A stretch of DNA of 64,000 nt from NCBI GenBank assembly GCA_039566865.1, contig CM076949.1, forward strand, positions 11,013,501 to 11,077,500, written 5' to 3'. Of this stretch, positions 13,899 to 55,573 are shown piece after piece. A program made the position numbers and the translations under genes. Origin of the DNA: Aurelia coerulea (Eukaryota > Cnidaria > Scyphozoa > Semaeostomeae > Ulmaridae). Position 1 is the first letter of the stretch, and the number at the start of each line of letters is the position of its first letter. The notes beneath the pieces are model-generated. The model saw only the letters and a list, made by a program, of their open reading frames with translations, did not search any database and was not told the origin of the DNA.

Positions 13899-16172
13899 GA
13901 CATTTCTGATCATAAACTGGTATATGTTGTACTTGATGTTAAAAGGAATAAAACCCAACCAGTATTAAAAGTCATAAGAGATTTCAAGAATGCAAATATA
14001 GAAAACCTCAAGAATTCGATGGAGAAGGTACCGTGGTGGGTATGCAATATTTTCGAAGATGTTAATGATTCATTATATATCTTTGAGGAGCTATACAAGG
14101 ATGTCATAAATGAGCATATAAAGTTAAGAACAGCGAAAGTAAGAGCAAAGGGACTACCTTGGGTGACTAGGGACATCAAAAAAGCTATGAATAAGAGGTA
14201 CAAAGCCTTGATGAAATGGCAACGAAGCAAAGAAGATCTTTTACTCAAACAAAAATACAAGGAATTAAGAAATAATGTGACAAAAATGATGCAAGAAGCA
14301 GAAACTAATTATTGGAAAGAACAATTTAACGCTGCAGCTACAAGTGCTGATTTTTGGAAAATAGTGAAGAAACTAAAAAGGAAACAAAAGGAAAGAAAGA
14401 TTGGTCCTTTGAAAAATGAGGAAGGCAGCATAATCACTAATGATACAGAAAAGGCAGAGCTCATGAATTCCTATTTTACAAACATAGGAAAAGAGCTATC
14501 CGATAATCTTAACTGTACCTTTGATGAAAGTGACATGAGTTATATAAGCAGGGTAACACCTACTTGCAATGACATTGTCTACAATGATAAGAAACTAGAT
14601 GATCAGTTACGAAATTTGAACCCAAGAAAAGCTGCTGGACATGATGATATAGGGTCAAGAGGATTGAAAGTTATAGGGGAACCTGTCAAACCAGGAATTA
14701 GGTGTATAATGCAAAATAGTATTGCAGAAAAGAAATTCCCTGATACATGGAAACTCGGAAAGCTAAAATCTATCTTCAAAAAGGGAGAAGAATGGAATAG
14801 GGAATTTCTTTACTTTGCATACTTAGCAAGCTTATGGAGGGTGTCATTTGGGAAATTCATAACGGGAAGCTCTTTTGCAATAATCATCGAATGGATAGTC
14901 ATTTGACAATATCGGGGATAAGCCATCCAAATCAATGGGGGTTCAAGCATGGCTGTAGTACAGAAGGGCTACTTCTCTATCTTACTGAAGAGTGGAAAGC
15001 TGCACTTGATGATGGGAATTATGTGGGAATACTGTTTGTTGACTTTAAGAAAGCTTTTGACAGTGTGAATAGAGACATCCTAAAAAGAAGCTCCAAGCTG
15101 TTGGCATCTGTGGAGATATGTTTCACTGGATCTGTGATTATCTTGATGAAAGGAAGCAATATGCAGAAGTGAATGGGAAGTTCTCATCAGTAGAAGGAAT
15201 TGACTTTGGAGTTCCACAAGGGTCTCTCCTTGGCCCGCATCTATTCTCGATTCTTGTCAATGATCTCCCAGATGCCGTATCGGCGGGACATCTCTTTATG
15301 TATGCTGATGACACCACAATTTATTGTGTCTCCAAAACCATCGAAGATGTAATTGAGAAATTAAATGCTGCAGCAAATGAACTACGTGCATGGTGTACAA
15401 AGAACCATCTTACTGTACACACAGGAAAAACAGAAGCAATGATTTTATCGAACGCCAATTTTGTAGGGCCTCTAAAGCCTGTTATGTTTGGGAATAATAT
15501 GATAAAATATGTTACAGAGGCACTTCCTTGGGAGTCAAAATAGACAACAAACTAAACTGGAAAAGTCATCTTACAAAAGTGACAAATAGTTTTAATAGCA
15601 AATTTAAAGAGATGAGAAGACTAAGGTATTTACCTATCAAGATTCAAGAGGAGATATATTTCAAAACTGTGGTTAGTTCAATGACATACTGTGTTTCTGT
15701 TTGGGGCACAAGTTCTAATGTCATCATGGATGCTATTGATAATCTACATAGCAGGGCTGCAAGACTCATACACAAGATCAAAGATAGAACCCTTACAAAC
15801 GAAGAGATAATGAACAAAGTAAATTGGCAGCCAATAAGTTACATCTATAAGAAAAGGCTGCTAACCTACATGCACACAATTTTCTATGGAAACTGCCCTG
15901 CTCTACTCTCAAGGCCTTTTGAAAAACGAGAGAGTAGAACTCGGAATAAGTTGCAATTTGACATAAAGCGATTTAAAAGAGAGATTGGCAGAAATAGTCT
16001 TAGATATAGAGGATCTCTTCTGTGGAATGCAATTGACAACAGTTTAAAAGAGAAAGAGAACACACAAGAATTCAAGAACAACATCAAATTACATATTGAT
16101 TTTATAAATAAATTTTCCTTTAAATCTGAAACTTGTATTTTAAAAACTAGGCTTAAGGATTTTTATTACTGA
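13899..16172 (+). pseudogene. LINE endonuclease (C-end) plus reverse transcriptase, frameshifted
   Basis: The reading passes through at least three frames (breaks near 14790-14840, 15100 and 15530), so the copy is dead. The first residues, DISDHKLVY, are the SDH motif of an APE-type endonuclease. Reverse-transcriptase motifs follow: A, FVDFKKAFDSVN (about 15035-15075); B, GVPQGSLLGPHLF (about 15208-15246); and C, MYADDT (about 15298-15315). A post-RT region with NKLNWKSHL and a WGTSS block ends at a TAA near 16170. The protein would have nicked target DNA and copied its own RNA there. The palm order and YADD match jockey/CR1-clade enzymes; the exact clade is not resolved. Confidence 0.85.
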
Positions 16173-18771: not shown

Positions 18772-19947
18772 CAGTGGTGTAGAGCTAGATCAATAACTAG
18801 GGGGGCTCAGGTAGAGAGGTGGCACCATGAAATTTGTTAGGGCCACGCCTTTTACTTTGGCGTAGAATGCATCTCCCAATATCATGCTTGCCATTAGCAA
18901 CAAGAAACGCTTGATAGTTTTGTGACAACTGACAGCTATCCTACAAATTAGAGCACGAAGGAAATTTCAGAAGAAACATCCTTTACTTTGGCGTAGAATG
19001 CATCTCCCAATATCATGCTTGCCATTAGCAACAAGAAACGCTTGATAGTTTTGTGACAACTGACAGCTATCCTACAAATTAGAGCACGAAGAAAATTTTA
19101 GAAGAAACATCCTTTACTTTGGCGTAGAATGCGTCTCCCAATATCATGCTTGCAATTAGCAACAAGAAAACCTTGACAGTTTGTGACAACTGACAGTTAT
19201 CCTACAAATTAGAGCACGAAGAAAATTTTAGAAGAAACATCCTTTACTTTGGCGTAGAATGCGTCTCCCAATATCATGCTTGCAATTAGCAACAAGAAAA
19301 CCTTGACAGTTTGTGACAACTGACAGTTATCCTACAAATCAGAGCACGAAGAAAATTTTTCAAGAAACATCCTTTTCTTTGGCTCAGAAGGCATCCTTGA
19401 TTCCATATTTACCAGTGCTAAAATGGAAGCTTTGATAACACAGTTCAATTATGTATAATTTCCTTCTAGCATTATTTGGCATTTCACGGAAAAATTTTCA
19501 CCGAACCTATACCCAGCCATTTCTCTTCCGCGTTAAAGGAATATCAAGGACCATTTTTCGAAACAAGTGGCGGGGGCACCCCATACCCCCATCGCCTTGC
19601 CACTTATGATGTCCGTTTGCACTTCCTTGTTCTATTGTAATTTGCACTTCTGTGTTTCTGAAGCCATTTTTATAACATTAGTGGCATCCCATTTATGCTT
19701 ATAAACATCAAGGAAGATAAGAGCTTGACAGTCATTGAAGATTTCATCTTGGTGCAAACCAAAAACCAGGATCACTTCTTTAAAAGAATATAACATTACC
19801 TTGTTCTGTCATTTTTGTCATAATAAACAAATCAAGAAAACCAAAATTTCTTCAGAATAACTAGGGGGGCTAAAGCCCCCCCAAAATTACGGAAAAAATA
19901 ACTAGGGGGGCTGAGCCCCCCTGAGCCCCCCCAGCTCTACACCACTG
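18772..19947. mobile_element. Non-autonomous hAT element with perfect 8-bp TSD
   Basis: The termini are CAGTGGTGTAGAGCT and AGCTCTACACCACTG. GGCACCAT is duplicated exactly at 18764-18771 and 19948-19955. The 1,176-bp interior is dominated by four full copies and one partial copy of a 131-bp unit. ACTAGGGGGGCT motifs sit near both ends. No transposase frame is present. It is the innermost layer of the LINE > TIR element > hAT nest. Confidence 0.93.
18851..19430 (-). repeat. 131-bp tandem repeat inside the hAT element
   Basis: The marker TTTACTTTGGCGTAGAATGC recurs, with small changes, at about 18851, 18982, 19113 and 19243, with a degraded copy at 19373. Spacings are 131, 131, 130 and 130 bp. 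Units 3 and 4 resemble each other more than unit 1 (CTTGCAATTAGC and GAAAACCTTGACAG variants), suggesting a later duplication of the pair. Diverged units occur at 5870-7020, 10030-10260 and 52905-53105. Confidence 0.92.
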
Positions 19948-22900
19948 GGCACCATAGACAACTTGAATGAACAAATATTTCAAACAAGAAAGGAGAGAGT
20001 AAGGAGGATTGTGAGCTTTTCTTTTCCTGCCCCAAAAACAACTGTTTTGAATGAAATGTTAATACGTATAAATTGATAGAGTCTACGCTGTCGACTGCGC
20101 TTGTCTATGACATAGAGGTTTGCAGCAAATTGCACTATAACATAACGAATAAACGTCCAGTGGTAGAATTAAAACAGAACTTATAATAATTATAATAATG
20201 ACAATAATAATAATTTATTATCAATTCTACCACCTTTGATTTTAACGTTTTCGTGTTGCCATGTTCCTTTTTAGTTCAAATAGACAGAGAAGAAACCGTG
20301 CGAGATGATGTCATCATGCATTCGGACATATGGAAGTGTTTCATCACTTAAGATTTTTGAAAAGATAAATCAAGAGTATAAGGCCTAAGGAAGAAAATGT
20401 CAAGTGTTGTCTTATTTTGTGTTGTCGCATTCCAAAGAGTGGTTGCTGTTGTCTTTTGGCGCGAAATTGTATTGTACTCTCTCACTGATGTGGAAATAAT
20501 CGATGTAATAACAACAACAACAACAACTCTGTGCTCGCAAGACAACGCAAATGCGCATGCACGTCGCATCGCTTCCGCTAAGCTGAAACTTTGTTTGTTC
20601 TGTTAAAAGCTGTTCAAAGAATTCCAAAAACATCAATTGACAAAAAATTTTGTTGGTACCAACTCCTATAGGCTGGGTACCGGTACCACTACTTTTGGTA
20701 CCAGGTTCCACCATCTTTCTAGAACTTGGTACCAGGTACCACCCCCTCTGGTACCATGGTACCACTACCCTGTCACCCCCCTCTTATTTCTACAAGAAGT
20801 CTGAAAAACTTTAATAAAACTGAGTTTTTGAATGACTTACTTTCAGTAGACTGGAAAGGTATTGTTTCCAATACTGACGACATTAATACAATTGTTAAGC
20901 AATGGTCCCATATATTCTCACTCATTCTTGAGAAGCATGCTCCGATGCGTAATAAACGTGTGTCTGAAAAATTTTCCCCATGGCTGACTAAGGAGTTTCA
21001 GACTATGTCTGCCACACGTGACAGACTACGTAAACAGGCCGTAAGATCCAAATCCCAAATTTTGATGCAAGCTTATAGGCAGTTACGTAACAGAGTTAAC
21101 AAGTTGAACTTGGACCTGAAGCGTGAGTTTTTCACAAAGAAGATTTCGTCTTATGCTGGTGATGTTAAGGGGTCATGGAAAATTATTAACCAAGTTCTAA
21201 ACAAAAAATCCAAGACTACTCATGTTTCATGTCTAAGTGTTGAGGGTGAAACAATACTTGACAATAAGGCTATCGCTGAATCCATGAATAATTTTTTCTG
21301 TGGCATTGGTAAAAAACTCAGTGACAAAATACCGGATACGGTAAATCCACTCTTGGGAAATGAATATTCTGTCAATAAAGAAAATACTAAGTTCCACTTT
21401 AAGCCCGTGGATACACGTCAGGTCGAAAAGGTCTTTGGAAAATTCAAATCATCTATGGGATCTGGGCCTGATGGCATTGCCAACTTTTTCTTGAAAGCTG
21501 GACTTCCAATCTTGGTCGATTCTCTTTGCGACATGTTTAATCTCTCTTTAGCTACTGGTGTTTTCCCGGATAGTTGGAAAATTGCAAGAGTTGCCCCTAT
21601 ATTTAAAAGTGGCCAACAGAATGATCGCTCAAATTACAGACCCATATCAGTTCTCCCTTTTTTATCAAGGGTGTTTGAAAAGTTGGTTTACAATCAGTTT
21701 TATGAGTATATGGACGGAAAAACCCTTTTTTTTCGCATCAATCCAGTTTTAGGAGTTTGCACTCTGTAGTTACATCCCTTTTAAACAATACCAATGATTG
21801 GTACGTCAATATAGATAATGGAAAATACACTGCTATGGTCTTCATCGACCTTAAGAAAGCATTTGACACGGTCAATCATCAAATTCTTCTCGCGAAACTG
21901 AAGAAATATGGCATTGATGGCCTCGAATATTTATGGTTCCAATCTTACTTAGAAAACAGATGTCAGTTCTGTAAAGTTAATGGTGCATGTTCTGATTTGC
22001 ACGATATTGATTGTGGTGTTCCTCAGGGATCGCGCTTAGGACCACTCCTTTTTCTAATCTACATTAATGATCTTCCTTTGGCACTCAATAAATGTAATCT
22101 GACAATGTATGCTGACGATACTAGCATCTCATATGCCTCTAAAAACATCGAAGAGCTTAATACTACACTAAATAGGGATCTCGATTGTCTAAACAAATGG
22201 TTGCAGGGTAACAAACTGTCGTTAAATGTTGTAAAGATGCAAGCGATGGTTATAGGTTCCCAACCAAACCTGAAGAAAATTGCTGAAAAGAAAGTAGATT
22301 CTACAACTTTTTCTATTGGAGGCTCTGACATAAATCTAGTTAACAATGTGAAATATTTAGGTGTTCAACTTGACAGTAATCTTGACTGGAATCAGCACAT
22401 GAAAGTCTTATGTGGCAAAGTATCTCGTGCTTTAGGTTTTCTCAAGTATGCTAAGAAATTCGTACCGAAACCTACTCTGATACAAATGTACAGAGGCATT
22501 GTCGAGCCACGCTTTCGCTACTGTTGCTCTGTATGGGGAAGCTGTGGCGAAGCTAGATTGCAAGCTCTGCAAAAATTGCAAAATCGAGCTGCAAGGATTG
22601 TCTCAAATAGCAGTTATGATACATCTGCGACCCTTTTGATTAAGAACCTTAAATGGCTTACTGTCAGTGATATGATTAAAAGTGAAACAGCTACGGTTAC
22701 GTATAAAGCAATAACTGGCCTTGCACCTAGCTATCTTTCTGATTTGTTCACAACAAATTCTGACCGAAATATTGATATTAGCTTGCGAAATGCAGCCACT
22801 GATCTCTATATCCCAAGGATGACAACCTGCAAAGGACAAAAAGCGATATCTTTTCGTGGCGCTAGAACTTGGAATCAGCTTCCGTTGGATATACAACAAG

Positions 22901-23188
22901 CAAATTCGCTTAATTCGTTTAAATGCCAACTAAAAAACCATCTGCAGCCTTCTGCTTGAACATTTGATTGTGATTTTTCGTTCCATTCACCAGTTTTGAT
23001 TTTACTCTTTTTAATTTTTTATCATAAGTATTCTAGTTAGATTTTTTAGATTTTATCACTTGTAATTAGGTTATTTTAGTAAAGTATTGTTAATTTTGTA
23101 AGCTTTTTAACACGGCCCCCTGTAAAGCAGTCGTTGATCGATGGGGCCACCGTGTATAAATAATTAAAAATGAATGAAAATGAAAACT

Positions 23189-31195: not shown

Positions 31196-31205
31196 ATTTA
31201 TTTTA

Positions 31206-31693
31206 GGCTATCTCTAAAGAGGGGAATGGAACGGGGGAATGGAACGGGGGAATGGAATTGGGGAATGGCTCGGGGAATAGAAAAGTTATATTGTATATAC
31301 ATAAGCCAAGTATAGCATATGAAAGTACTGCTCAAGATGTATCTTTTCACCAAATAGCTAGTCAATAACAGTCATAGTTTTGTTGCAATTCAAAGAATAA
31401 ACTTTCCTTTTTCAAACAAAGGGGAATGGAATGGGGGAATGGGTTTTCGGGGAATATCGAAACTACAAGGTAGAAATTCGATTTCAAGGTATCATTCGAA
31501 GCCCCTTCTTCTCAGCTATCCAAATTTACCATTTTCGCATCGATACATTGAACTGTTACTCCATAAACGTATGGTACAACTCAGATTATAGTTTCTTATC
31601 TCGATTGGCGATATCATTTCGTGATTTCAATTGGCTATCAGGCAGATTAGCAAACGCATTCTTCATAACAAAGAGTTCATATATGCCATGCCA
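31206..31693 (+). repeat. TIR block A, left
   Basis: It contains two clusters of GGGGAATGGAACGG-type short repeats (near 31219-31280 and 31421-31450) separated by AT-rich sequence. The whole block is mirrored at 38832-39317. About the first 320 bp also match block B in direct orientation. Confidence 0.88.
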
Positions 31694-32288
31694 TGCCCAG
31701 ACAAAGATAGGCACTAAATCCTAACTGGCTAACGAGCTTGGCACGTGACACGCTTTGAAACCAATCAATGGAACGGAAAATCGACCGGGAAATTTGAAAA
31801 GTCAAATTTAGGCCGTTTTTGGACGATTTTACCACCCTTCACCAAAAAAAGATTGTACGGAAGGAAAATTAAGATTTTCAAAAAATTCCTTCACAAACGT
31901 GTTCCCAATACTTGAATACATGCCTGTTCACGGGGGCTAAGAATTATCTCAAAATCTGGAGAAATGCCGAAGTTTTGAATTTGACCTCACTGACCTCACT
32001 GTAGCGTGTCATGGTAAAAACCTCAGTAAACACAGAAACGTATTCTTCACATGCATCTGGAGACTAAATACTTTGCTTCGAAGTTCTTATTCTGTGTGTT
32101 TAAAAGATGCCAAACTTAGAGCACTACAGCATCTGAATCTTTTTTAGTTTGAAGCTAACATGAATACCACCGGCGATTTTCAATATTTAATGCTGAGGGG
32201 AAGGTGAAAATGGGAAGATTTGCACTGCACTGGCCTAATAAGACATCACACTGTTGTTATAAATCAGGACGAATTAACAGATACTTAC

Positions 32289-32723
32289 AATTCTATCTTG
32301 CAAAATGAGGACCACAAACTGAAAATATGAAGCAGCACAAATGCCAAAAGTATTTCAACTGGTTTTAATGGCAAAAATCCACTTTTTTGACCGTAATCTG
32401 CAGCCAGTTTCTCCAACAAATCGTTCAGACTTTCCTCTTTCAACATCATTGTCAATAGAAAGGGCGCAGAAATTTCAGTGATCAGCTGCATGCTTGCTAG
32501 TCATCATCAAATAACATAAAATTCCAATGAACTTTGAATAAATAACAATTATTTCAGGAATGGCAAGAGCTGTAACATCCAACGTGGCCAGAACGAAAGA
32601 TTTTGTGATGTCCTCTTCGATAACCATTGCTCCCATTCCTTTATCCAATTCTGCTCTCATCCTTGTGAGATCATAAGAGTGGGAATCAGAGATTACATAA
32701 ACCAAAACATCATATAGATTCAC
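32289..32723 (-). pseudogene. Captured gene-like segment, left palindrome arm
   Basis: Two overlapping frames lie in tandem. The first (ATG near 32723) begins MNLYDVLVYVISDSHSYD, continues AELDKGMGAMVIEED and ends SKHAADH. The second begins MQLITEISAPFLL in another frame and ends at a donor-like site (AGAATT|GTAAGT, GT at 32287-32288). The right arm keeps the same layout. The protein family is not recognised. The coding-like character and splice-donor match suggest exon capture, but drift of a once-single frame cannot be excluded. Confidence 0.45.
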
Positions 32724-33387
32724 GAATTGTGTCCCTTGCTTTTTAGCACAAGAAATGGCAAATCATCTCGTCTAGCAGGTACATGAAATGAATATGAAAT
32801 ACTAAATTTAATTTTTGCGAAAGATCACAATTTCAACGAACGGAAGAAATGTACATCTTGTTTTTAATGTGAAAAATAGATTGGCCATTTCTGCAAAATA
32901 ACATTTGAAATACTACTTTTACAGCTCCTTCATATAAATTTCACAGTTTGTGCGGATATCATAGAAAAATATCTATCTTTGGACTACCAAAGGAAGGCCA
33001 TTCATTAGAAAATCACTCCTTTACTGTCAAACAACACAGCAGCATAGAGCACAACTTTTCTGTGAGATGATAAAACTTCGACCCCCCCCCATAGACTGAA
33101 GTTTCTTAGAATTCTTATTCTCGTTTGACCGCATAGGGGTGATTTTCAAATGGATGACCTCTGGTAGTCCAAAGATAGATATTTTTCTATGATATCCGCA
33201 CAAACTGTGAAATTGATATGAAGGAGCTTTAAAAATAGTATTTCAAATGTTATTTTGCAGAAATGGCAAATCTATTTTTCACATTAAAAACAAGATGTAC
33301 ATTTCTTCCGTTCGTTGTTATTGTGATCTTTCGCAAAATTAAAATAAGTATTTCATATTCATTTCATGTAGCTGCTAGACGAGATGA

Positions 33388-33867
33388 TTTGCCATTTCTT
33401 GTGCTAAAAAGCAAGGGACACAATTCATGAATCTATATGATGTTTTGGTTCATGTAATTGTAATTGCTGATTCCCACTCTTATGATCTCACAAAGATGAG
33501 AGCAGAATTGGATAAAGGAATGGGAGCAATGGTTATCGAAGAGGACATCATAAAATCTTTCGTTCTGGCCACGTTGAATTTTACAGCTCTTGCCACTCCT
33601 GAAATAATTGTTATTTATTCAAAGTTCATTGGAATTTTATGTTATTTGATGATGACTAGCAAGCATGCAGCTGATCACTGAAATTTCAGCGCCCTTTCTA
33701 TTGACAATGATATTGCAAGAGGAAAGTCTGAACGATTTGTTGGAGAAACTGGCTGCAGATTACGGTCAAAAAAGTGGATTTTTGCCATTAAAACCAGTTG
33801 AAATACTTTTGGCATTTGTGCTGCTTCATATTTTCAGTTTGTGGTCCTCATTTTGCAAGATAGAATT
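33388..33867 (+). pseudogene. Captured gene-like segment, right palindrome arm
   Basis: This mirrors the left-arm copy. The frame is open from about 33388, with ATG at 33427 (MNLYDVLVHVIVIADSHS). It includes a small insertion (VIVIADS against VISDS) and then AELDKGMGAMVIEED to SKHAADH at 33681. An overlapping frame from 33665 (MQLITEISAPFLL) reads to a donor-like AGAATT|GTAAGT (GT at 33868-33869). Most differences between arms are conservative substitutions (K/R, T/I). No family was recognised, and no promoter is visible in the loop. Confidence 0.45.
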
Positions 33868-34460
33868 GTAAGTATCTGTTAATTCGTCCTTATTTATAAC
33901 AACAGTGTGATGTTTTATTAGGCCAGTTCAGTGCAAATCTTCCCATTATCACCTTCCCCTCAGCATTAAATATTGAAAATCGCCGGTGGTATTCATGTTA
34001 GCTTCAAACTAAAAAAGATTCAGATGCTGTAGTGCTCTAAGCTTGGCATCTTTTAAACACACAGAATAAGAACTTCGAAGCAAAGTATTTAGTCTCCAGA
34101 TGCATGTGAAGAATACGTTTCTGTGTTTACTGAGGTTTTTACCATGACACGCTACAGTGAGGTCAGTGAGGTCAAATTCAAAACTTCGGCATTTCTCCAG
34201 ATTTTGAGATAATTCTTAGCCCCCGTGAACAGGCATGTATTCAAGTATTGGGAACACGTCTGTGAAGGAATGTTTTGAAAACCTTAATTTTGCTTCCGTA
34301 CAATCTTTTTTTGGTGAAGGGTGGTAAAATCGTCCAAAAACGGCCTAAATTTGACTTTTCAAATTTCCCGGTCGATTTTCCGTTCCATTGATTGCTTTCA
34401 AAGCGTGTCACGTGCCAAGCTCGTTAGCCAGTTAGGATTTAGTGCCTATCTTGCCCAGAC

Positions 34461-35092
34461 ATATATTGACGGGGAATGGAATGGGGGAATGGAATGGGGG
34501 AATCGCTCGGGGAATAGAAAAGTTATACAGTATATAGAAGGATAAAGTATAACATAGGAAAGTACTTCTCCGAATGTATATTTTGGCAAAATAGCTAGTC
34601 AATAACAGTTAGTTTTGTTACAAATCAAAAAATTAACTTCACTTTTCAAACAAAGGGGAATGGAATGGGGGAATGGGTTTTCAGGGAATATCAAAACTAC
34701 CTGGTAGAAATTCGATTTGAAGGTATCATTCGAAGCCCCTTCTTTCCAGCTATCCAGATTTACCATTTTCGGATCGATACACGAAACCGTTGGATCTAGA
34801 AGCGAAGGGGAAAGCCAGATAGAAGTTTGCTTGTTGTTTCAAAAGAAGTCAAAAGGCAAATTAGGACGACGCCTCTACACAACAGGCTAGACATAGGCTT
34901 TTTTTAGATTGTTGGAACGATGAGAGATGCCTGGGAATGTTTCTTCACTTTGTTTTCACAAGCAGGGAGGATACAGCCTAGATATTCAGATCAAATTGAA
35001 TGAATATTGGCATTGCTGTCGTTATCATCGCTACTATATGTATAGTAAAATCCCCCCTCCCAGGTTTCGCAAAGCTTGGCAGTTTTTCTGTC
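34461..35092 (+). repeat. TIR block B, left
   Basis: The first part repeats the GGGGAATGGAATGGGG module of block A. The remainder (CGAAACCGTTGGATC onward, with GGACGACGCCTCTACAC and GGAGGATACAGCCTAG) is unique to B. All of it is mirrored at 38202-38825. Confidence 0.85.
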
Positions 35093-35455
35093 AACGTTTC
35101 TTAACTTGACACCCCCTAGATTTTTACTTCCCGTACGCTTATGCCCCTGGGCATACAAAAGCATCGCTTCTTTTCTAATCAAAGGACCTTAGAAGTGACG
35201 CACGGGCTTAATGATTTTTATTGTGAAATTTTCCAAATTATGCCATGAGAATGCAAAGGAAGATCAGTGCAGTTTTGTTGCACCTTCCTCGAAATATGAG
35301 TAAATATGCTGTAATGTTACGTTACAGAATGCAGTCTGAGGAAGCAACCATCAAAAATTGGCGTGCACGAAATGTTTAGTCTTTGCTTGAAGATTTTTCA
35401 GTGGAGAACAAACAATCTAATTAAACACACAAGCAATCAAATTAATCACGAAATA

Positions 35456-35857
35456 CACGTTTTTTTATTATAAGAAACTTGGATCAGCATTTGGTACTAA
35501 AAGTTTCTTAATTTCGCATGAAAATTTCGGTGTTTTAGTAGTAAAAGTTTCTTAATTAGTTTCTTATTTGTTTGGGCCTAAAATTGCGGTATTGTTCGAA
35601 GTTGAGCCTTCTATTTTGCATTGACATTGTCATCAAGAAGAAGCCATGCACATCAAGGCAAAAATTTACCAATTTTGCAGTTAAAAGTCAAGAAAAGACG
35701 GAGGCACCTTTGTTAGAGAGACATAGAATAAGAGAGACATACAGATATAACGTTTTAGAGTTTCTTAACTGTTCTTGAGCGTAGTACTAGAGTTTCTTAA
35801 ATTTTTGGTCATCGTAGTACTAGTTTCTTATAAACCAGTTTCTTATAAAAAAACGTG
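35456..35857. mobile_element. TAAGAAACT-family MITE, 402 bp
   Basis: Flanked by TA (35454-35455 and 35858-35859). The ends are CACGTTTTTTTATTATAAG and the mirror-like CTTATAAAAAAACGTG. AGTTTCTTA and AAGAAACT motifs cluster in both subterminal zones. It inserted inside the large Mutator-like element. Confidence 0.85.
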
Positions 35858-36881
35858 TAATCCGTTTTCAGCATGATTAAACAGTGCTAGTGTTAATAAG
35901 AAACTCTTTTCAAGAATTCAACTAAGAACTAAACCAGTAAGAACCTCGACTGAGAACTTGGATACTGCTCAAAAAACTTGTTTATTTTGTCTGAGAAGGT
36001 AATTCGCATACTGGCGCTGTATTCTGGTAAAACTCACGAAATGCTTGGGAAGTTACCTATCAATGAATACAACGAACATGTAAGAAGGATGCGGAGAAAC
36101 TGCAAAAACCTTTGGTACCCATGATCTGCTAATTTCAACTGTTTACTGAAAGCTAAAAGTGACTTTCAGTACTGGGTGGGAAAATTTATTGGTTTCTTGA
36201 AAACTCTTCGATTGTTGTTCTACTTGACTGATCAGCTGCCTAAAAGTTCTTAGAAAACTAACAATAATCTTGAAAAAATGCTAACAAAGAGCTTTTTGAA
36301 ATAATTTTGATGGGAACGTCATTGGGCTAATTACTGCACTCAAAGAGTTCATTTTGTTGGAGAAATTTCCCTTAGCAACCAATCTCATTCTGTGAAATGA
36401 TGCATCAACACAGGCGAGCAAGGTGGCTGCCATGCCAAACACATTATATTTTCCAATCTCGGCCTGTTCTCAGCTGCAGTCCCTCTATTTTCCAGAAGTT
36501 TATTATTCACAATTTAGCGCAAACCTCAAGATCAATGTGCTTTGCACAAGTCAACTTAGAGGTCTAGTCCGAACAAAACATTGAATTCAGACTATTGCTG
36601 AACAAATTAAAAGTCTAGGCCTACTTTTGAAGCAAAATCGGCTAGCCTATGATTCAAATAAAATGCACAGAAAGTTTAAAAAATGCAAGGCTTGAATTGA
36701 AAATTGATGAACTCGCGTTGTTGCAAGGCTTGATGTGGACTTCATCACGTCCTTCACCCCATGACATAAAGGATTTTGTAAACAGGAAAATGCCCACCAC
36801 CCCTATGACTTCACTACCGTGCGTCAAAAATGCTCTCTCGCACGACTGTGGTGCATCGTGCAACTCTTGCACAGCGCAGAT

Positions 36882-37124
36882 CGAGGGGCAAATTACTGAT
36901 TTTTTTTTCGTACACCTTCCTTAAAATCACAAAAAAATCACACACAAAAATCACAAAAGCACAAAATCACCATACAAAAATCACAAAATCATAGAAAAAT
37001 CACAAAAAAAATCACAAAAAAATCACTAAAATCACAAAAAATCACTAAAATCACAGAAAAAAATCGTGTGATTTTAAAATCACAAAAATCACGTACGCTA
37101 TTTTGAGAAGTGATTTGCCCCTCG
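36882..37124. mobile_element. hAT-like MITE with AAAATCAC array and perfect 8-bp TSD
   Basis: CGAGGGGCAAATTACT is mirrored by AGTGATTTGCCCCTCG, and GCGCAGAT is duplicated exactly at 36874-36881 and 37125-37132. Nearly the whole interior (about 36930-37095) is a degenerate (AAAATCAC)n array. It split an otherwise continuous stretch of the Mutator-like element interior. Confidence 0.88.
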
Positions 37125-37268
37125 GCGCAGATTCTACAGAGCCAAAACGACATGATTTTAGGTCAGGCTGCCCAACACAAAATCAATTGTTTAGCATAAT
37201 TTTTGCTCGACTGAGGGCATTTTTTTGCCCGATTGGGGCTCCCGGTCCCCCGCCTCGTACGCTTATGC

Positions 37269-37796
37269 CCAGGGGGGTACTCAGGTATATTTAGGATAGG
37301 GGTGCTCAGGCTGGGGTACAGCACATCAACCCAAAAAATAATTTCTAGCATAAAAATAGATCCAAACAAATAATTTGTCTTACCCTACATACCCAAAAGT
37401 TATGGAATCAGTATCTTTAATCTGTAGAAAAGGCTTTGAATTGGGGAATTGCTAACTGCTTACTGCTAACTGCTAACTGCTAACTGCTTACATTTCTTAC
37501 ATTACATTTCTTACATTAACTGCTTACATTTCTTACATTACATTGCTAACTGCTTACATTTCTCCATATTGTATTTGAATATTCACGTGTTTGATCTTAG
37601 TAATGTTAGTTACTTGATGTTAATTTCATTTGTAAATTATATTTTTCCCCGATTTTTTCATTTTCCCCAAATTTGAGACCAAAAAAGTAAGCCAGAATTT
37701 CAGGAACCCAAAAAAATAACTGTACAAATCATTGACCCAAAAAAGTAACCTGAACACTCCTATCCTAAATATATGAGATTACCCCCCTTGGGTTGT
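37269..37796. mobile_element. TIR element with GGGTACTC terminus
   Basis: CCCAGGGGGGTACTCAGG, then ATATTTAGGATAGGGGTG, is mirrored at the right end (CACTCCTATCCTAAATATAT, then TACCCCCCTTGGG), giving about 45-bp imperfect TIRs. The termini resemble the 27137 family (a G run and GTACTC). No TSD was resolved. It encloses a CTAACTG array. Confidence 0.7.
37449..37570. repeat. Tandem CTAACTG / CTTACATTT array
   Basis: TGCTAACTGCTTACTGCTAAC-type heptamers grade into CTTACATTTCTTACATTA units. Confidence 0.85.
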
Positions 37797-38201
37797 ATGA
37801 CGCGAGGGGGTACAGAAATGTTGTTCATTTTTTTGCGATTCCCCCTTCAGCAACGCCATGTGGATTCTCTTTCAGCAGGTTTGTCTATTGTCTCTAAACA
37901 CAAACATTCATATCCCTTGCTTTCCTTTTTGGTGGAACTGAGCTTTTTGCAGAGGGTGATAAAGAAAAGAGGGGCGGGGGCAGGATCACGAATCCCGAGA
38001 ATATAATGTTAAATATCACGTTTGACTCCAAAGGATATAGCGTTTTCACATTTCACGACAATAGATAATGGCTTTTCACGCTTCACGAGAAGAAAATATG
38101 TCCGAAAAACATGGCCGATCACGATCACAAGCCAGAGTGCTGCTTTTCAGCTGTGAAACTTTGAACGAACACCTCAACGACATGATTTTAGGTCAGTGCC
38201 A

Positions 38202-38825
38202 CTGCCAAGCTTTGCTAAATTTGGGAGGGGGGATTTTACTATACATATAGTAGCGATGATAACGACAGCAATGCCAATATTCATTCAATTTGATCTGAAT
38301 ATCTAGGCTGTATCCTCCCTGCTTGTGAAAACAAAGTGAAGAAAATTCCCAGGCATATCTCATCGTTCCAACAATCTAAGAAAAGCCTATGTCTAGCCTG
38401 TTTGTGTAGAGGCGTCGTCCTAATTTGCCTTTTGACTTCTTTTGAAACAACAAGCAAACTGCTATCTGGCTTTCCCCTTCGCTTCTTGATCCAACGGTTT
38501 CGTGTATCGATCCGAAAATGGTACATTTGGATAGCTGGAAAGAAGGGGCTTCGAATGATACCTTCAAATCGAATTTCTACCAGGTAGTTTCAATATTCCC
38601 CGAAAACCCATTCCCCCATTCCATTCCCCTTTGTTTGAAAAGTGAAGTTTATTTTTTGATTTGTAACAAAACTATAACTGTTATTGACTAGCTACTTTGT
38701 GAAAAGATACATCTGGAGCAGTACTTTCATATGCTATACTTGGCATATTTATATACGGTATAACTTTTCTATTCCCCGAGCGATTCCCCCATTCCATTCC
38801 CCCATTCCATTCCCCGTCAATGTGT
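38202..38825 (-). repeat. TIR block B', right
   Basis: This is the inverted partner of 34461-35092. It adjoins block A' directly, with only a few bases between. That marks the uninterrupted arrangement into which the nested palindrome inserted on the left. Confidence 0.85.
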
Positions 38826-38831
38826 GTACTT

Positions 38832-39317
38832 GGCATGGCATATATGAACTCTTTGTTGTAAAGAATGCGTTTGCTAATCTGCCTGATAGCCTATTGAAAT
38901 CTTGAAATGTTATTGCCAATTGAGATAAGAAACTATAATCTGAGTTTTACCATACGTTTATGGAGTAACAGTTCAATGTATCGATGCGAAAATGGTAAAT
39001 TTGGATAGCTGAGAAGAAGGGGCTTCGAATGATACCTTGAAATCGAATTTCTACCTGGTAGTTTCGATATTCCCCGAAAACCCATTCCCCCATTCCATTC
39101 CCCTTTGTTTGAAAAAGGAAAGTTTATTTTTTGATTTGTAACAAAACTATAACTGTTATTGACAAGCTATATGGTGAAAAGATACATCTGGAGCAGTACT
39201 TTCATATGCTATACTTGGCTTATTTATATACTGTATAACTTTTCTATTCCCCGAGCGATTCCCCCATTCCATTCCCCGTTCCATTCCCCCATTCCATTCC
39301 CCTCTTTAGAGATAGCC
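38832..39317 (-). repeat. TIR block A', right
   Basis: This is the inverted partner of 31206-31693, ending CCCCTCTTTAGAGATAGCC. It is similar along its whole length, including the two GGGGAATGG-type clusters, which appear here as CCATTCCCC. Confidence 0.88.
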
Positions 39318-39560
39318 ATTCATTTTATGTGTTTTACCACCACTTGCGTTTCGTGAAGATAAGAGTTAGGGAATGTAACAAGGAATTTTTGTTACAGACA
39401 AGCGAGGAGACAAACCAGGCATATGACTCAAAAACATTGAAAGATATATTTGTTAGGACATCTTTCTTTGGATTGAATGGCGTTGAAGGGACTTTGCTAC
39501 AGTTCTCCTACTTACATTTCTCCATTTTAGATTTTAATATCTTGATTGGTAGCACAATTA

Positions 39561-40025
39561 GGGACAGTGCAAAATTTATCATATTACATGGCCGGTGGAG
39601 AACAAAAATTCTTGCAAAAAAATCTGCTTGCCCTGTATGAAATTATTGCAAAAACTAACTGCCCGTCACCCTTTCCTTAGAAAAATGTGTCTCCCGTATT
39701 CTTGAATAAAAGATGTTGTTTATCACCGAAGAATTAACCAAAGACCATAACAAAATCAATTCTTGTCGCCTTATGACTTATTCTTGCAAACGACTGACAA
39801 GGACATTTTCATTAATTTCATACATATCTTCCTGCATTTCTCGACTTGCATGATTCACTATGTTGTCCTCAAAATGAACCATTTTATATCTCAAAATTCG
39901 TCTTGAGCTCATAAAAAGTTCCTGCCTCGTTCATATTGCTTTGTAATTCTTTACAAGCTAAAAAAAGTAGTTGCCCCGTTACGTTTTGCACTGGCCATGT
40001 TATAAAATAAACTTTGCACTATCCC
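39561..40025. mobile_element. MITE, possible PIF/Harbinger type (copy 2, inverted)
   Basis: This is a near full-length inverted copy of 98-569. The flanks are TTA and TCA, a weak 3-bp duplication. Most differences from copy 1 are substitutions and short indels that break the small frames seen there. Confidence 0.75.
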
Positions 40026-41312
40026 TCACAAGGTCTTGCGTTTCAACTGTTCTTCAGGTTGTGACGTCATCGAATTGCTAAATCATCAGCACAAAGTGAC
40101 TGGATTTCTGCTTATTGCCAAATTGTAGATCTTCACAATGTAAGTGCAAAAATTTTCGGCGTGACAAACTTTCGGACAAAGACTTGTCCGAAAATATATT
40201 TGTACGAAATATGGAGTTGTCCGAAAATTTGTCACGCCGAAAATTTTTGCATAGATGTGCGCACGCGCAATGTGGATTGAATGCCAATAGGATAGGAACC
40301 AAGACGAGAAATCTGAAATCGAATCTCCAGCACGTCACGAAAGATTATTGCAAGCATGCAAAGTTTTTGAAAAAGAAACTGTTTCCAATCCAATATTATT
40401 GAACATATAGTCAGAACAAATAACAACAACGTCCTCTTCGTCTTTGACAATTTACATGCTTCCTCTTGTGACTATGCTCTCACTGTTGCTGATATAATTC
40501 GAAAAGAATTCATATCAAAATGGCCAAAATTGATGTTGCAATCAAAAACGACATAGAACAAGAAGACCCTTTTGCAGATTTAAAGTGCCTATGACACCAA
40601 CTACAATTTAAAGCACGTATACAAAGATTGACGAATACGAATAGAAACAAGAAAATTAGTGAATTTTTTGCTGTTCTATTTTTAGAAGGGACTTTATTAG
40701 GACATGCTAGGGCTCTATTCCAAACTTTATGAAGATGTTTTGTTTCAATAAATCTTAAGCCTGGACTTGGGGTGATTTTGCATAAATGATCCGTAGACCA
40801 GTCAAAAATTTTGTCCCAAAATTCATTTGTCCGAAATACCAAAAATGTGTCCGAAAATATTTTCGCCGAAGTTTATCCTCCGAAAATTTTTGTACTTAAT
40901 GTATGTTTGTCTTGAAAATGATACTGCTTTTCCTCTATTGATTTAAAATATACGACAATACAAACCCTTTAAAAAATTTGCATCTGGATGCAAATTCAGA
41001 TAACGCAGGTCTACATGGTTTACACTCACTTCAGATCACGTGATTGTCCTCTTGAGAAGCTGTTAAAGTTTTCGTACCATGAATGGATCATATGGGCTGT
41101 AAGAAACTGGCACAGTAAAAACCCCCTGAGATAGCTCAAATAAGGCAATGACCCGTACGTAAAATCGTATACTCCGATGTGACAAAAATGAATAACACGA
41201 ATAATCCATTTTATGTACTTCGATTCAAATCTCAATAAAGTTCCTTCCAACACGATGCTAATAAAATGAATGATATGCTTCCATGTAATATACGTTACAT
41301 CAAAATCACTGT
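40026..41312. other. Spacer with small foldbacks
   Basis: It contains the 105-bp hairpin (40146-40250) and a decayed relative (about 40800-40897, with TTTGTCCGAAATA and CCGAAAATTTTTGTA). No gene is supported. A short CACGTGATT-containing patch near 41037 has no further context. Confidence 0.4.
40146..40250. repeat. 105-bp hairpin MITE
   Basis: GCAAAAATTTTCGGCGTGAC is mirrored exactly at the right end, and TTTCGGACAA / TTGTCCGAAAA form an inner pair. The arms of about 45 bp enclose about 15 bp. A degraded relative lies near 40800-40897. Confidence 0.85.
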
Positions 41313-48931: not shown

Positions 48932-49895
48932 TTAAATATAACCATCTTTTGCGTTCTCTGATCTCCACCTCCCATGACGTTTGAAAAGCCTGTCTTCATT
49001 TCTGCGTTTGCAGCAGCTGTAGCGTCTCCAGCTCGGAGACTATGGAGACCAAATTCCTTTTTTATTTAAGCCGATCTTTTATCAAAGGCGTCTAAAACTA
49101 TTTCTCTCGTGCGGCTATATGAAATTGGTCTATCTTTAGAACGTAGTTTATAAGTATCTAGATTTTTGAGAAAAGCAATCGCTCTAAATAGGTATTCTTG
49201 CCAATTCTCGGGGATATCAGCAAGTTTGATATACTTTTGAAGGACTTCGTAGGGGCAAGAGATTGAACCAGTTTTAGCAATAAGCACGTGAGCTCCATTT
49301 CTGTAAATATCAGTCTTGCTTTTTTCGATGAAGATTTTCATGTATGTGTTGTGAAAAGAGATATCTGATCGTCGTAAATTAGCTACTTCATTGAACCTCA
49401 GAAATCCAGAAAATGCTACACAGCAAATAGCAAGCGTACGGTAATTGGGCAAATTATTGGGATTCTCTGTGAGGATTTTGCCAAGCTTGCGCAAATGTGT
49501 AGGTTTAATAGGCTCTTTCTTTTTGTTGGCTTAGCCAAAATCCTACGTGCTGATTCCAGAGCAGTTACTGCCATTTTGTTTTTGCAAGGGTTCTTCCTGC
49601 CAGTTATGTCATGAAGGAATTTCAAACCATAGAATATCTGAGTGATTTTTGAAAGTCTTTCTGCAGACTGAACCATGCTTGTAATAAAAAGCGTAAGTGA
49701 AGCAGCTTTCACAGGGAAAGAAGATAATTCAGAAAATTGATCAGACCATGTCTTCCATGTTTTGATGCCTCTGGTGTAGGTTTCAACCATGTTTTACTCT
49801 TGGATGCAAGTAGCAAAGTGGAAATAGATTCATTCAATGATTTCAGTGTTGGGTGGACGAAATAGCTATCACGGTAGATGACATCTTTGATCGGA
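48932..49895 (-). pseudogene. Tyrosine recombinase of the retrotransposon
   Basis: The element uses this enzyme in place of an integrase. The N-terminal core-binding region spans about 49430-49895 (SLNESISTLLLAS, then TRGIKTWKTW and FLHDITGRKNPC). The catalytic part follows: first Arg in FSGFLRFNEVANLRRSD (about 49375-49425), HxxR as GLHSLRAG (about 49030-49055), the H/W box RHGRWRSENAK (about 48945-48985), and catalytic Tyr in DGYI just before the stop at 48932-48934. All five residues are thus still readable. However, an in-frame stop follows DKRSA (49066-49068) and there are frameshifts near 48985 and 49440-49490. A pyrimidine-rich tract ending in AAG lies at about 49896-49920 on the minus strand and could be a splice acceptor, so the frame may begin with an intron. 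Confidence 0.88.
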
Positions 49896-50359
49896 CTTAA
49901 AAGAGAGGAAAAAAAAAAGTTTGTTCCAAAAAACTTGCAAAGTCAATACTTCAAAAATCACTCAAAAATTCACTGTCTAGGTCAGTATGACATAATGCCT
50001 GTGCATTAATCCAAAACCTCTCAAAACTAAAGCTAGGTTGCAACTTGCTAATACAAGTCCAATTTCACTACCTGTACATAAGGAACTAATTTCCAAGCAT
50101 ACGCGTACAATATGACAGGTAATCGAAAAATAAAATGTCAAACATCAAATCTCGTTGCACCCAGTGCCTTACTCTTGATCTGTAATTTCTACTCAAAATT
50201 GTAAATTGTAATTGTAGGGCCAATGAACCGATCCCGGCTGCCCGTCAGTTACGTAATCATGAAACTCTTCCTTTGCAATTCTGATCCCAGAACCTTTATC
50301 CATCAATCAGTATCCTTAAAAAATTGCTTATACTTGTTATTTTATAACCAGTTCTGTGT

Positions 50360-50462
50360 ACTAGATTAGATGCGTACAAAAGATACCAGAAAATCAATAA
50401 TTCTGTGTAAACAAGCCATCCAGCAATGTAAACAAGCCATCCAGCAGAGAATAACATAAAGT
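50360..50462. repeat. Short tandem duplication in the RH-recombinase spacer
   Basis: A 20-bp unit, GTAAACAAGCCATCCAGCA, occurs twice head to tail (about 50408-50447). It sits between the RNase H stop and the recombinase. Confidence 0.8.
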
Positions 50463-51075
50463 TCAATTGGAATTCCCATCCAAAGCCACTGCCAATGCTG
50501 GACTTGTGTACTTGTTCGAACCTAAGAGAGAACCTTTATAATTACCGAGTTCGAAAATACCTGAGGGATTATTGAAATACATTATGTCTGTGACGTAAGT
50601 ATGAGTGACAAACTTGTTTACAAATAGGAGGGGCCAAAATGGCGCGGAAGGCCAACATGGGGCAATAAGAACCCCTTTTGCTTTGCATGACAAAAGATGC
50701 AGAATAACCTTAGAAATCAGGTAAACTGGTGGGACAATCCAGTTGTTTTCACTCGCCCACGACACAAAGAATGCATTTACTTGCTCCGAACAAGGATTCC
50801 AAAACAATGAATTAAGTCTAGGGCACTTTGCATTATTGGTAGACGATGCAAAGCGGTCTACTGTAAAAGGGCCCCACCGTTGGCTAATCTTATAAAAAAA
50901 CCATTTTGTTGTCTGCCAGTCATCATAGTCTACAGCTTTACTAACTAAGTCTGCATGTGTATTATACTCCCTAGGTACCCATTCCGGAAACAATGAAATA
51001 TTATTGCTCAAGCACGATGAATCAATATCTAAAGCAAGTTCTTGTAAATGTGTCTTCATGCTACCGTTATTTATA
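50463..51075 (-). pseudogene. RT-RNase H C-terminal part
   Basis: This is the end of the polymerase protein. HLQELALDI is followed by EWVPREYNTHADLVSKAVDY and WGPFTVDRFASS, then SENNWIVPPVYL, then CWPSAPFWPLL, and finally SPALAVALDGNSN and a stop at 50463. The WxPRxxNxxAD...SK and DRFAS blocks are characteristic of DIRS-order polymerases. The frame is open for about 200 codons. It is cut from the RNase H core by the insertion 51076-54884; the reading resumes at NKNVV on the far side. Confidence 0.88.
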
Positions 51076-52610
51076 ATAGAAACTAGCTGTTAACGCAGTT
51101 AAGTAAGTGCTGCTCATAGCATTATTGATAATAACATTCCGCAGATTGTCAAAAGAATAAATGTCAGAGTGGATATTTTGGAGCATGTGGTTGAAACCAA
51201 GTTAAATTGCAGCTTTTTAAGGTAAAACAATTAAAAAAACTACGAGAACTGTTTGTAAATGTCAAGACTGCATCAAACGACTATAATAATCATTAAAACT
51301 CAATGCGATATTAATCTCACTTCAAGTCTTCATTGCAATTTCAAGACTCAGTTAATCAATGTCAGTTCATTTTGTACTTTCTTGGACTGCAAGGCTTTCT
51401 TTCTCCTAGGTGGTACCTCAAATAGTGTATGGTTTTCTTTCTCGTTTGGCCATAGATCAACACTGCTATTTTGAAGTAAAAATAGTTTTGATGTTTTAGT
51501 AATACAGAGCTTTGATCATTTCTTTGTAATTAGCTCAGAATGTCAATTATCTGCTTCCATCTGCAATAATCAGCCTCTTCGATAATATTCAAACAACTTG
51601 ATACATGACGGCAACACACAAAGTGCCCCCCTTTTCAATTCTGTGTCAAATAACAGGCTTTGTACTTTGCCTCAAATGAAAGCAAGTCTTGAGGGTATAT
51701 GATGCACAACAGTTGACCACAACAATTCTTCAAAAGTTCATCTGGTGACAGTTTGTATCAAAGTTAAAAGGTCGCAAGGTGTGAAGAATGGTCACAGAAG
51801 CAATGCTGATCCAATGCTTTTTGGTTTTTGTAAGAATGTGCATCCAGATAACTAATTTGTAAGATAACTTTCTTATGCTGCGTTGGTCTTTGAATGTCAA
51901 TGGTTAAAGAAGCAAATACTGATCCAATGCTGTGCAAACTGTTACAGGAATATGAACAGCTGATATGCAGAATGTGATCCAATGCTGTGTTAATCTTTAC
52001 ATGGGCTGTCACAAATCAATAACGTTACCTTTAACTTCTGCAACAAAATACATGAGATATTAAGCTTTTGTTTATGAGATGTATATGTGCATGGTCATAT
52101 GGCAACATTAAGGGACCTTTGCAAGGAGCATGGTTTGTGAACACACCATTGTGTGGTCTTTTCGTTGTTGCCATTTTTACAGTCCACAAAAATGACCACC
52201 AATAAAGAGATGGCACATGCAAGGTATGGTGGTTGGAAAGGCCGATTTAAGAACATATATTGCAACTAAGTAGAAAACAGAAATATACTGACAAGAAAAA
52301 TCTGTGCTAAAAGAGGGGAAAAATTAATCAAGAAGCCAATCAAAATTCTTTCAGGTGCAAAGAATCATGGTTGAAAGATCCTTTCAATTATCTTTCTTTT
52401 GCAATCCTCTCTTGTGATTTTCTATGCAATGGGAAATTATCTCTTCTGTTCTAAAAAAAATTCATGGAACATTTATGCACTAGATGTTTGCAGTTTTAAG
52501 CAAAAAGAAAACTACTGTTCTAAAGTGCAACAATACTCTACTAAAAGATTAATTCTTACCTAATTTAATCAAATACATAAAACCCTGAGTTTGTATTGTG
52601 CATAATAGAT

Positions 52611-52783
52611 ACCAGGTACCCATCTAATATGAAAATTGCATGGTTGTTATCTGTGAAAATCTTTAAGTGCTGTATGCAAGGGAATGAATGGTGAATCATT
52701 ACATTATCATCTTGTGTATTACTAAAGAAAGAGCCTTGACAAATATTTCCAAAATTGAGCATCCTGAATGATCAGATTCATAG
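52611..52783. repeat. 172-bp direct repeat, copy 1 (empty-site form)
   Basis: From ACCAGGTACCCATCTAAT to GATCAGATTCAT this is almost identical to 53549-53721. Here CCAGGTAC is followed by its natural flank with no hAT end before it. Confidence 0.9.
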
Positions 52784-52849
52784 AGAACTGGAGATGACCG
52801 GAAATGCGACTTTGAGAAAATGGCTAGCGATTCAATTTGCAGGGTAAAT

Positions 52850-53548
52850 TAAATGGGGGGGGGGGTACGAAGATGAGGGAGTCTGGGGGCGATGCCCCCG
52901 GAAAAATTTTTAGGGCCACGCCCTTTACTTTGGCTTAGAATGCATCTCCCAATATCATGCTTGCCTTAAGCGACAAGAAAACCTTGATCGTTTTTAACAG
53001 TTATCCTATGGATCAGCGCACGAGGAAAATTTTTAAAGAAAGATCCCTTACTTTCATCTCCCAATATTATGCTTGCCTTTAGCGACAAGAAAACCTTGTT
53101 TGTAATACGTCTAGAATGTTGAAACAGAAAGGTCCATCTAAGGCTGAGTAACTATGAATGTCAACTGCACTGGAAGGACTTTTTGGCGCTTAACAATAAG
53201 GGGGTAAAACTGTAAAATAAGTTGAACGAAAAGAGTCCAAACTAATGGGCCAAAAATGGGGAGTTTTGCTTCACTACTTGGCCAGGAAGAGGGCCTACTG
53301 GGCCAATGGCCCGCTGGTTATATATTAAAAGATGCCCTGATTGAACGTGAAGAGGTGTTCATTTGGTTGGGGCCCAGAGACAATAGACGTGATAGCCATT
53401 GTTTTGAATCAGCTTGCGAAGCTTACGTGTATGGTTATAGATTGATGGTTAAATTCAAAAATTTCTCTTTATGAAGGGCCCGCTTTTCAAAATTATAAGG
53501 GGGCCCGGGTGGCGATCGCCACCTAGCCACCCGGGCCAGTCCGCCCCT
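52850..53548 (-). mobile_element. Truncated hAT element with 131-bp units
   Basis: The right end GGGCCAGTCCGCCCCTG (to 53548) matches the terminus of the element at 9260-10638 (CAGGGGCGGACTGGCC in reverse). Units of the 131-bp repeat occupy about 52905-53105, after a G run and a GGGGCGATGCCCCC motif. The expected left terminus is missing. Frames near 53256-53474 are unconserved. Confidence 0.65.
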
Positions 53549-53721
53549 GCCAGGTACCCATCTAATATGAAAATTGCATGGTTGTTATCTGTGAAAATCT
53601 TTAAGTGCTGTATGCAAGGGAATGAATGGTGAATCATTACATTATCATCTTGTGTATTACTAAAGAAAGAGCCTTGACAAATATTTCCAAAATTGAGCAT
53701 CCTGAATGATCAGATTCATTC
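53549..53721. repeat. 172-bp direct repeat, copy 2 (filled-site side)
   Basis: It begins CCAGGTACCCATC directly after the hAT terminus and matches copy 1 to GATCAGATTCAT. The first eight bases, CCAGGTAC, equal the expected hAT target at copy 1. Confidence 0.9.
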
Positions 53722-53995
53722 AATTTGCTGTTTGTTTCAGTTGGTTTTGAAGTAGTAGCTTTTGTTGCCACAATAATGGGCAATTCACTGTTTATAACCA
53801 CAAATGGGTGATTCACTTTTTCTTTCCACAATGGGAAAGTCACTGTTGTCAGGTGCCTCAGTGGGAATTTCTGATATATTGGCTTTTGTTGCTACAAGTG
53901 GCAATACCACAATGGGTTTATACGTTTAATTTGTTGCCACAAAGGGCAGGTCATTGCTGTTTATTTGTGAAAGTGTAAGAAATTGTTGGGTAGGC

Positions 53996-54496
53996 CTAGA
54001 GTGGTTTCGGGTAATATGGGACCTCGGGTATTTTGGGACATTATTCAGTAAATGAAGCTTAGGGGCCTGGGGATGAGAAAGAAGCTTGTTAATTTCACTT
54101 GATGCAAGTCTTCATACCTCGTCTGTCATATTTTGATCGATGTTAGGCTCCTGTAACATTTTGTGTACTCTGCGTATCGCTGATAATGAAGGACATCAGA
54201 CATCAAGTGATTTCAGGCTGCCATTTTCTTGAGATATCTCAAACATGAACCAGTATACAAACAATAGAAATAACTTAGTTCCAAAATACCCGACAGTGTT
54301 CCATACCCTAGCTAATGCCCAACTCAACCCGGGTTCAATTTTTTGTCTTACTTATTAACAACCAACGTTTCAGAATCAGGGCATACTGATGAAATATTAG
54401 AGCATGCTTTGGCATAATTGCTAATACCAAGTTTGGCTCAATGTGTCAAGAATTATGCTGTTAAGTGTTCCATGATAATACCCGAAACTACTCTAG
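53996..54496. mobile_element. 501-bp TIR element (CTAGAGTGGTTTCGGGTA)
   Basis: CTAGAGTGGTTTCGGGTAAT is mirrored by ATACCCGAAACTACTCTAG. A second inverted pair (CGGGTATTTTGGGAC / TTCCAAAATACCCG) lies inside. No target duplication was resolved. Confidence 0.78.
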
Positions 54497-54800: not shown

Positions 54801-54871
54801 CATCCATACAAACACCGCCATCGACACAGGAATTGCAATCAACCCGTCTAAATGTCTGCTACGCGCATGTG

Positions 54872-55535: not shown

Positions 55536-55573
55536 GCAATCAGAAAATGTACTGCATATAGAAACATAAGATC

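Follow-up and report, generated by a model that had tools for sequence, protein, structure and literature searches.

In a 64,000-nucleotide stretch of the Aurelia coerulea genome (contig CM076949.1, hereafter C7; C7:11013501-11077500, the whole of which we call the window), positions 31206-39317 very probably hold two nested non-autonomous foldback-type transposons, most likely of the Mutator superfamily, whose composite later transposed as one unit. Copies of both elements were sought in the same genome (574 Mb, 294 contigs). The outer family occurs there both with the inner element (locus L014) and without it (L009-L013 and others).

The case for joint transposition comes from L014 (C7:12112348-12119571), a second full composite on the same contig, 1.07 Mb from the window copy. 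Its inner element sits at the same base as that of the window and is bounded by the same 9-bp target duplication. Its outer 10-bp duplication, ATTGAGTGAT, is perfect (10/10) and its own, and no similarity is observed between the two loci in the 1-kb flanks on either side. The common internal insertion site, together with different flanks and separate 10-bp duplications, shows that the nested pair moved as one unit. Two composites on one contig could also have arisen by segmental duplication or recombination, and foldback-like elements such as Galileo readily exchange sequence (PMC3573991). However, the flanks are dissimilar, the termini mark the limits of the match between the copies, and the 10-bp duplications (10/10 in L014, 9/10 in the window) are separate ones, which makes such an origin very unlikely.

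The inner arms of the window copy and of L014 are 99.77% and 99.55% identical, against 96.2-97.7% for the 13 other copies compared, indicating that the two are each other's closest kin. Their outer parts are equally close, except for positions 1-227 of the outermost left block, A, where 3 of 227 bases differ. Two independent insertions at the same base of two outer copies would find some support in the apparent tendency of this spacer to attract or tolerate foreign DNA (6 of the 8 insertions in arms, see below); yet, with such identities in both elements, we regard this double event as extremely improbable. Near-perfect hairpins are hard to assemble, and the palindrome or the nesting might have been an artefact of assembly. 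Against this, the inner arms differ by 2.9%, and many other copies of the palindrome have 9-bp duplications of their own. Since a second composite exists with different flanks, misassembly is highly improbable. Misassembly, independent double insertion and segmental duplication were thus all rejected on the flanks of L014, the arm identities and the duplications.

The same comparison bears on the timing of the joint transposition. The window copy and L014 differ by 19 substitutions in 6,168 aligned bases (0.31%), and the two inner arms of the window copy by 39 in 1,324 (2.95%). If the inner arms were alike at landing, the composite probably jumped late relative to the nesting, at about one tenth of its age; the premise is inferred from a divergence between arms that is about the same inside one copy as from copy to copy. 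Each composite also has an insertion of its own, and L014 lacks part of A; these changes may have come before or after the jump. The insertion private to L014 is 983 bp long and has a 9-bp duplication, and a gap at A 228-446 leaves about 270 bp outside the inner element on that side. In the window, a 1,647-bp stretch of the outer core (35179-36825), without a clear target duplication, is unmatched in the other outer loci compared; it is probably a private insertion, since L009-L014 join both of its sides directly.

The course of events is most likely the following. A member of the inner family inserted into the spacer of one outer left arm, with a 9-bp duplication, as the anatomy of the composite and the empty sites of its relatives show. 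The outer tip remained usable, and a later jump of the composite gave the window copy and L014. The outer ends would be bound by a transposase supplied in trans, possibly at the G-rich boxes described below, which are putative subterminal binding sites, and module 1 alone may be sufficient as a left end. This suggests that on the left the outer 490 bp or so are enough for an end; some 270 bp would perhaps do, although the deletion in L014 could postdate the jump.

The outer element (31206-39317) is a member of a multicopy foldback-type family. Its target duplications, ATTTATTTTA on the left (31196-31205) and ATTCATTTTA on the right (39318-39327), agree at 9 of 10 bases, as the 10-bp duplication with one mismatch of the initial annotation had implied; agreement of this kind was seen in 155 of 2,000,000 random 10-mer pairs from the window. 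The left arm begins with part A (31206-31693, plus strand), which comprises the terminus GGCTATCTCT, the first module and the greater part of the spacer, and resumes beyond the inner element with part B (34462-35083, plus strand), which holds module 2 (34471-34781) and the inner arm region. The right arm consists of B' (38201-38830, minus strand), with module 2 at 38503-38815, the first half of which is of module-1 type, and A' (38831-39317, minus strand), with the terminus, module 1 (38977-39289) and the spacer. Between the arms lies a core (35084-38200, plus strand), for which read-through translation in six frames gave no Pfam match above cut-off.

Self-comparison recovered all the inverted A-B/B'-A' blocks that had been proposed: 31206-31693 pairs with 39317-38831 at 95.1% identity, and 34452-35083 with 38835-38201 at 94.2%. 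The arms so defined, of about 1.1 kb, recur in other copies. The direct repeat of about 320 bp between A and B likewise holds, as a module of about 314 bp whose two copies are 87.6% identical on the left (31234-31547 and 34471-34781) and 94.3% on the right (38503-38815 and 38977-39289). Each outer arm therefore comprises two direct modules, with 13-bp G-rich repeats (GGGGAATGGAATG). Repeats of this kind (GGGGAATGGAACG) stand beside the terminus at 31221-31268 (plus strand), and boxes related to GGGGAATGGAACG are found at 31420-31442, 34471-34503, 34654-34676, 38608-38630, 38783-38815, 39082-39104 and 39258-39302.

A genome search with the first 401 bases of the outer element gave at least 64 matches, with 40 of 113 candidates scored. 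The exact 17-base outer terminus occurs 39 times in the genome, and its reversed control not at all. The boundaries at 31206 and 39317, as first annotated, are seen again in other outer copies. Both ends and both flanks could be read in 12 copies, five of which (L011, L012, L013, L014 and L022) have perfect 10-bp duplications. This count excludes L017, L025 and L028, where the tip is altered or missing, and L015, L016, L021, L023, L024, L026 and L027, where one end was read. In one of the 12, L020 (C7:12632500-12636500), each flank is an inverted copy of the other, as would result from an inverted duplication of half the element together with its flank.

The inner element is a member of an abundant, almost wholly palindromic foldback family. 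In the window it runs from AAGATAGGC to GCCTATCTT at 31704-34452 (plus strand), with arms of about 1.33 kb (31704-33032 against 34452-33123, 96.4% identical when inverted) around a spacer of about 90 bp, in agreement with the palindromic form noted initially. The target duplication, GCCCAGACA, lies at 31695-31703 and again at 34453-34461. The initial annotation was right about a 2.75-kb insertion with an exact 9-bp duplication, but boundaries and duplication belong one base to the right of where it had put them (GCCCAGACA, not TGCCCAGAC), because the ends and adjacent duplications of the fetched inner loci fix the boundaries. Within the window, TGCCCAGAC occurs at 31694 and 34452 only. The start AAGATAGGC, in a longer form AAGATAGGCACTAAATCC, is present in 20 of the 20 inner loci fetched, and GCCTATCTT is the right end in all 17 that show one (the fetched stretches of L037, L044 and L048 show one end only). 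An exact 9-bp duplication adjoins the element in 13 of these 17 two-ended copies.

The exact 26-base inner terminus occurs 262 times in the genome (134 forward, 128 reverse; reversed control, 0). Among the 100 of these termini that were listed, covering contig C1 to part of C7, 29 neighbouring pairs face each other at 1.1-18.3 kb, 13 of them spanning 2,665-2,789 bp; the only ones with an exact outer terminus less than 35 kb away belong to the window copy and L014. In a comparison of 15 copies (the window copy, L014 and 13 of the 20 fetched), inner arms are 96.4-98.8% alike within a copy, and means between copies are 97.1-97.7%. We had expected arm-specific differences common to the inner copies; the expectation failed, with no diagnostic column among the 15. 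An arm frame of about 95 amino acids was not accepted as a gene: its non-synonymous to synonymous ratio is 0.58, 6 of 30 arms have stops, 28 of 30 rows have gaps, and it belongs to no Pfam family. A protein search gave it one relative among six candidates, on a 511-base contig.

The nesting had been placed at a boundary of the terminal inverted repeat. We find the insertion instead inside the outer left arm, in its spacer, about 490 bp from the tip of an arm of about 1.1 kb. The right A'/B' junction does preserve the arrangement of an empty site, as proposed, but an imperfect one in the window (GCCAAGTACACACATTGAC); cleaner empty sites, with a single GCCCAGACA, are present in L012, L013 and L021.

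An origin of the A/B doubling in the nesting event can be ruled out, because copies that lack the inner element have two-module arms with module-specific sites. In an arm map of 21 records aligned with the right arm of the window copy, such arms are seen in L009-L013, L015, L016, L023 and others; one-module arms are seen in L020, L025-L027 and on the left side of L018. Eighteen sites separate the two modules, with a purity that is partly built in, since the rows used to choose the sites (at least 70% in each group) are also the rows sorted by them; the right arms of L012 and L013 are left aside, as are L014, L017, L022, L024, L028 and L049. Every one of the 14 module-1 rows agrees with type 1 at no fewer than 16 sites. 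Ten of 15 module-2 rows are of type 2 at all sites or all save one, and the other five are mixed (window right arm, L016, L018, L021 and L023). Module 2 in the right arm of the window switches from type 1 over the first nine sites (eight and an odd base) to type 2 over the remaining nine, as would be left by a conversion tract. The right arm of L014 matches that of the window at 99.4%, so the switch is older than the jump of the composite. Direct modules exchange sequence, as this switch shows, and two modules could collapse to one, as the one-module relatives suggest.

Arm insertions in the mapped outer copies are concentrated between the modules. Six of eight lie in the spacer of about 160 bp, which makes up about 14% of the arm, and have different ends (window/L014, L013, L017, L018/L019, L021 with L020, and L028); module 1 holds another (L049), and the last is further in (L017, right arm). 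The excess has a binomial p of 0.0002, or 0.0004 for six of seven when module 1 is left out, both computed post hoc; the query, made up of the first 401 bases, biases the sample against copies whose module 1 is broken. The inserts compared by sequence with fetched loci were those of L013, L021 and the window only. We consider it unlikely that the spacer is a landing site for other transposons, with guests that stay mobile with the host, the outer module being enough by itself for an end. If this were true, doubling of the end module would create a safe harbour from which guests hitch-hike, as in the window/L014 composite.

Assignment to a superfamily was based on the features of Mutator-like elements (MULEs): target duplications of 8-10 bp, inverted repeats above 100 bp (PMC5225508) and an autonomous copy that has the same ends and encodes a MULE transposase. 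The first two are found in both families, with duplications of 10 bp (outer) and 9 bp (inner) and arms that far exceed 100 bp. The structural features of foldback elements are present as well, the outer family having long arms with direct and short tandem repeats in variable number, and the inner family arms that make up nearly the whole element. That both families behave like non-autonomous Mutator foldback elements is well supported; their membership of Mutator itself is likely, by duplication length and arms. The term Mutator-like in the initial annotation stands to this extent, but no transposase could be tied to either element.

Several observations weigh against our conclusion. Seven of the 12 two-ended outer copies have no perfect duplication: that of the window copy is 9/10, that of L009 reaches 9/10 only if three bases, AGA, are assigned to the right end, and five (L010, L018/L019, L020, L049/L050 and L051) have none. 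Among the 17 two-ended inner copies, four lack an adjacent duplication (displaced by one base in L045, none in L029, L034 and L046); duplications of the lengths noted in the window recur in independent copies and are absent from some. The jump could have gone either way between the window copy and L014. The outer core and the inner element of the window have no Pfam match above cut-off, with weak ones at E-values of 0.085-0.67. Genomic matches to the MULE domain PF10551 come no closer than 29.7 kb to an exact outer terminus (39 compared; altered termini lie outside this comparison) and no closer than 36.9 kb to an inner terminus (100 listed); the 29 inner pairs enclose none. Larger relatives were scanned; they gave a kinase match in L018 and a reverse-transcriptase match in L012, and no transposase. 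Two candidate autonomous copies were rejected: a 13.2-kb pair of outer termini on C4, which lacks both a duplication common to its flanks and any frame of at least 120 amino acids, and the 5.5-kb inner copy L052, which has a 9-bp duplication but no 100-amino-acid frame outside its arms.

Both families might instead be foldback elements from outside Mutator, whether P/Galileo-like, of Merlin or of a superfamily yet to be described, an alternative that we consider possible but doubtful. The lack of a transposase linked to either set of ends would agree with it, as would the emergence of the foldback form in several superfamilies (PMC3169594, PMC4079207). Duplications of 9 and 10 bp and arms above 1 kb nevertheless fit MULEs (PMC5225508), and not the 7-bp duplications of Galileo in the P superfamily (PMC3573991). 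MULE domains are also abundant in this genome: PF10551 has at least 105 matches with 150 of 224 candidates scored (105 above cut-off, 5 with an internal stop), using a profile that also matches in 3 of 14 control genomes. We thus retain Mutator as the likely superfamily.

Contigs C9, C5, C22 and C17 hold 78 of the 105 PF10551 matches (31, 16, 16 and 15, respectively). On C22, 9.6 kb separate an outer-family match (C22:14883877-14884201) from a MULE domain (C22:14893771), which is on the flank side of the match by orientation. The outer-family core of L018 contains a kinase-like fragment (L018:2476-2691, PF07714, E = 1e-5), perhaps a captured host exon. Pack-TIR elements (PMC8277862) are defined by a captured host gene fragment between the arms; the L018 core has its kinase match there, and the window copy is without a Pfam match above cut-off.

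Elsewhere in the window, a Ras-like gene at 2435-3433 (minus strand) has 14 protein matches; the one whose name includes an organism is from Hydractinia, at 39%. Long frames at 13833-16172 and 20723-22959 have by eye the look of a reverse transcriptase of long interspersed nuclear element type, and frames at 49066-57509 (minus strand) resemble by eye a tyrosine recombinase and a reverse transcriptase, as in a DIRS-type element. A tandem array at 18851-19395 comprises 4.2 copies of a 130-bp unit, with relatives at 6777-7023 and 52861-53098. Positions 52612-52781 and 53550-53719 form a 170-bp direct repeat with 100% identity, and 97-572 and 39558-40026 an inverted pair at 94%, the second copy of which lies about 240 bp past the right end of the outer element. 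Rfam and transfer RNA scans found nothing.

Long arms with short tandem repeats are familiar from the TU elements of sea urchin and the FB elements of Drosophila, a likeness in structure. The architecture had first been called unusual; it matches described foldback elements, namely Tm1, Tetris and Galileo. Tm1, a Mutator/Foldback family of root-knot nematodes, resembles the present case in its many non-autonomous copies, in duplications that are mostly of 9 bp, and in composite long arms, on average 93% alike, with tandem repeats of 13-15 bp (PMC3169594). Tm1 differs in having asymmetric 7-bp tips and a group of copies that encode a Phantom-like transposase (PMC3169594), whereas here the tips are symmetric, the arms usually contain two modules of about 314 bp and no copy with a transposase was found. 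Tetris of Drosophila virilis is likewise a foldback element with direct repeats, of about 220 bp, in its arms, duplications of 8-10 bp and no transposase found, and was assigned to Mutator by duplication length (PMC4079207). In contrast to Tetris, which has another host, the copies mapped here have one or two modules per arm and no long module arrays, and the likeness is one of description. Galileo shares arm growth by direct repeats, exchange between copies and chimeric copies without matching duplications, but belongs to the P superfamily (PMC3573991).

For the joint movement, the closest parallel is in rice, where coding MULEs carry the miniature inverted-repeat transposable element (MITE) Os0548 at one site: the nested insertion did not stop later transposition, and many copies derive from one nested element (PMC3903597). 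The rice case involves a 274-bp MITE, coding MULEs and 107 copies, 40 with an intact and 67 with a partial MITE (PMC3903597); here, a 2.75-kb palindrome sits in the arm and two copies are known. Among the titles and abstracts listed by searches of one open-access library, none names a foldback element that sits inside an arm of a second one and has travelled together with it. The Aurelia composite offers a clean, datable animal case of a transposon still mobile with a 2.75-kb palindrome in its own arm, and brings two further foldback families to light in a genome where MULE domains are abundant. Its internal direct modules suggest a route by which long arms may grow, convert and collapse. Mutator elements of foldback form, arms built of modules, and nested MULEs that move together have all been described before; the transposition of the composite is the new result here.

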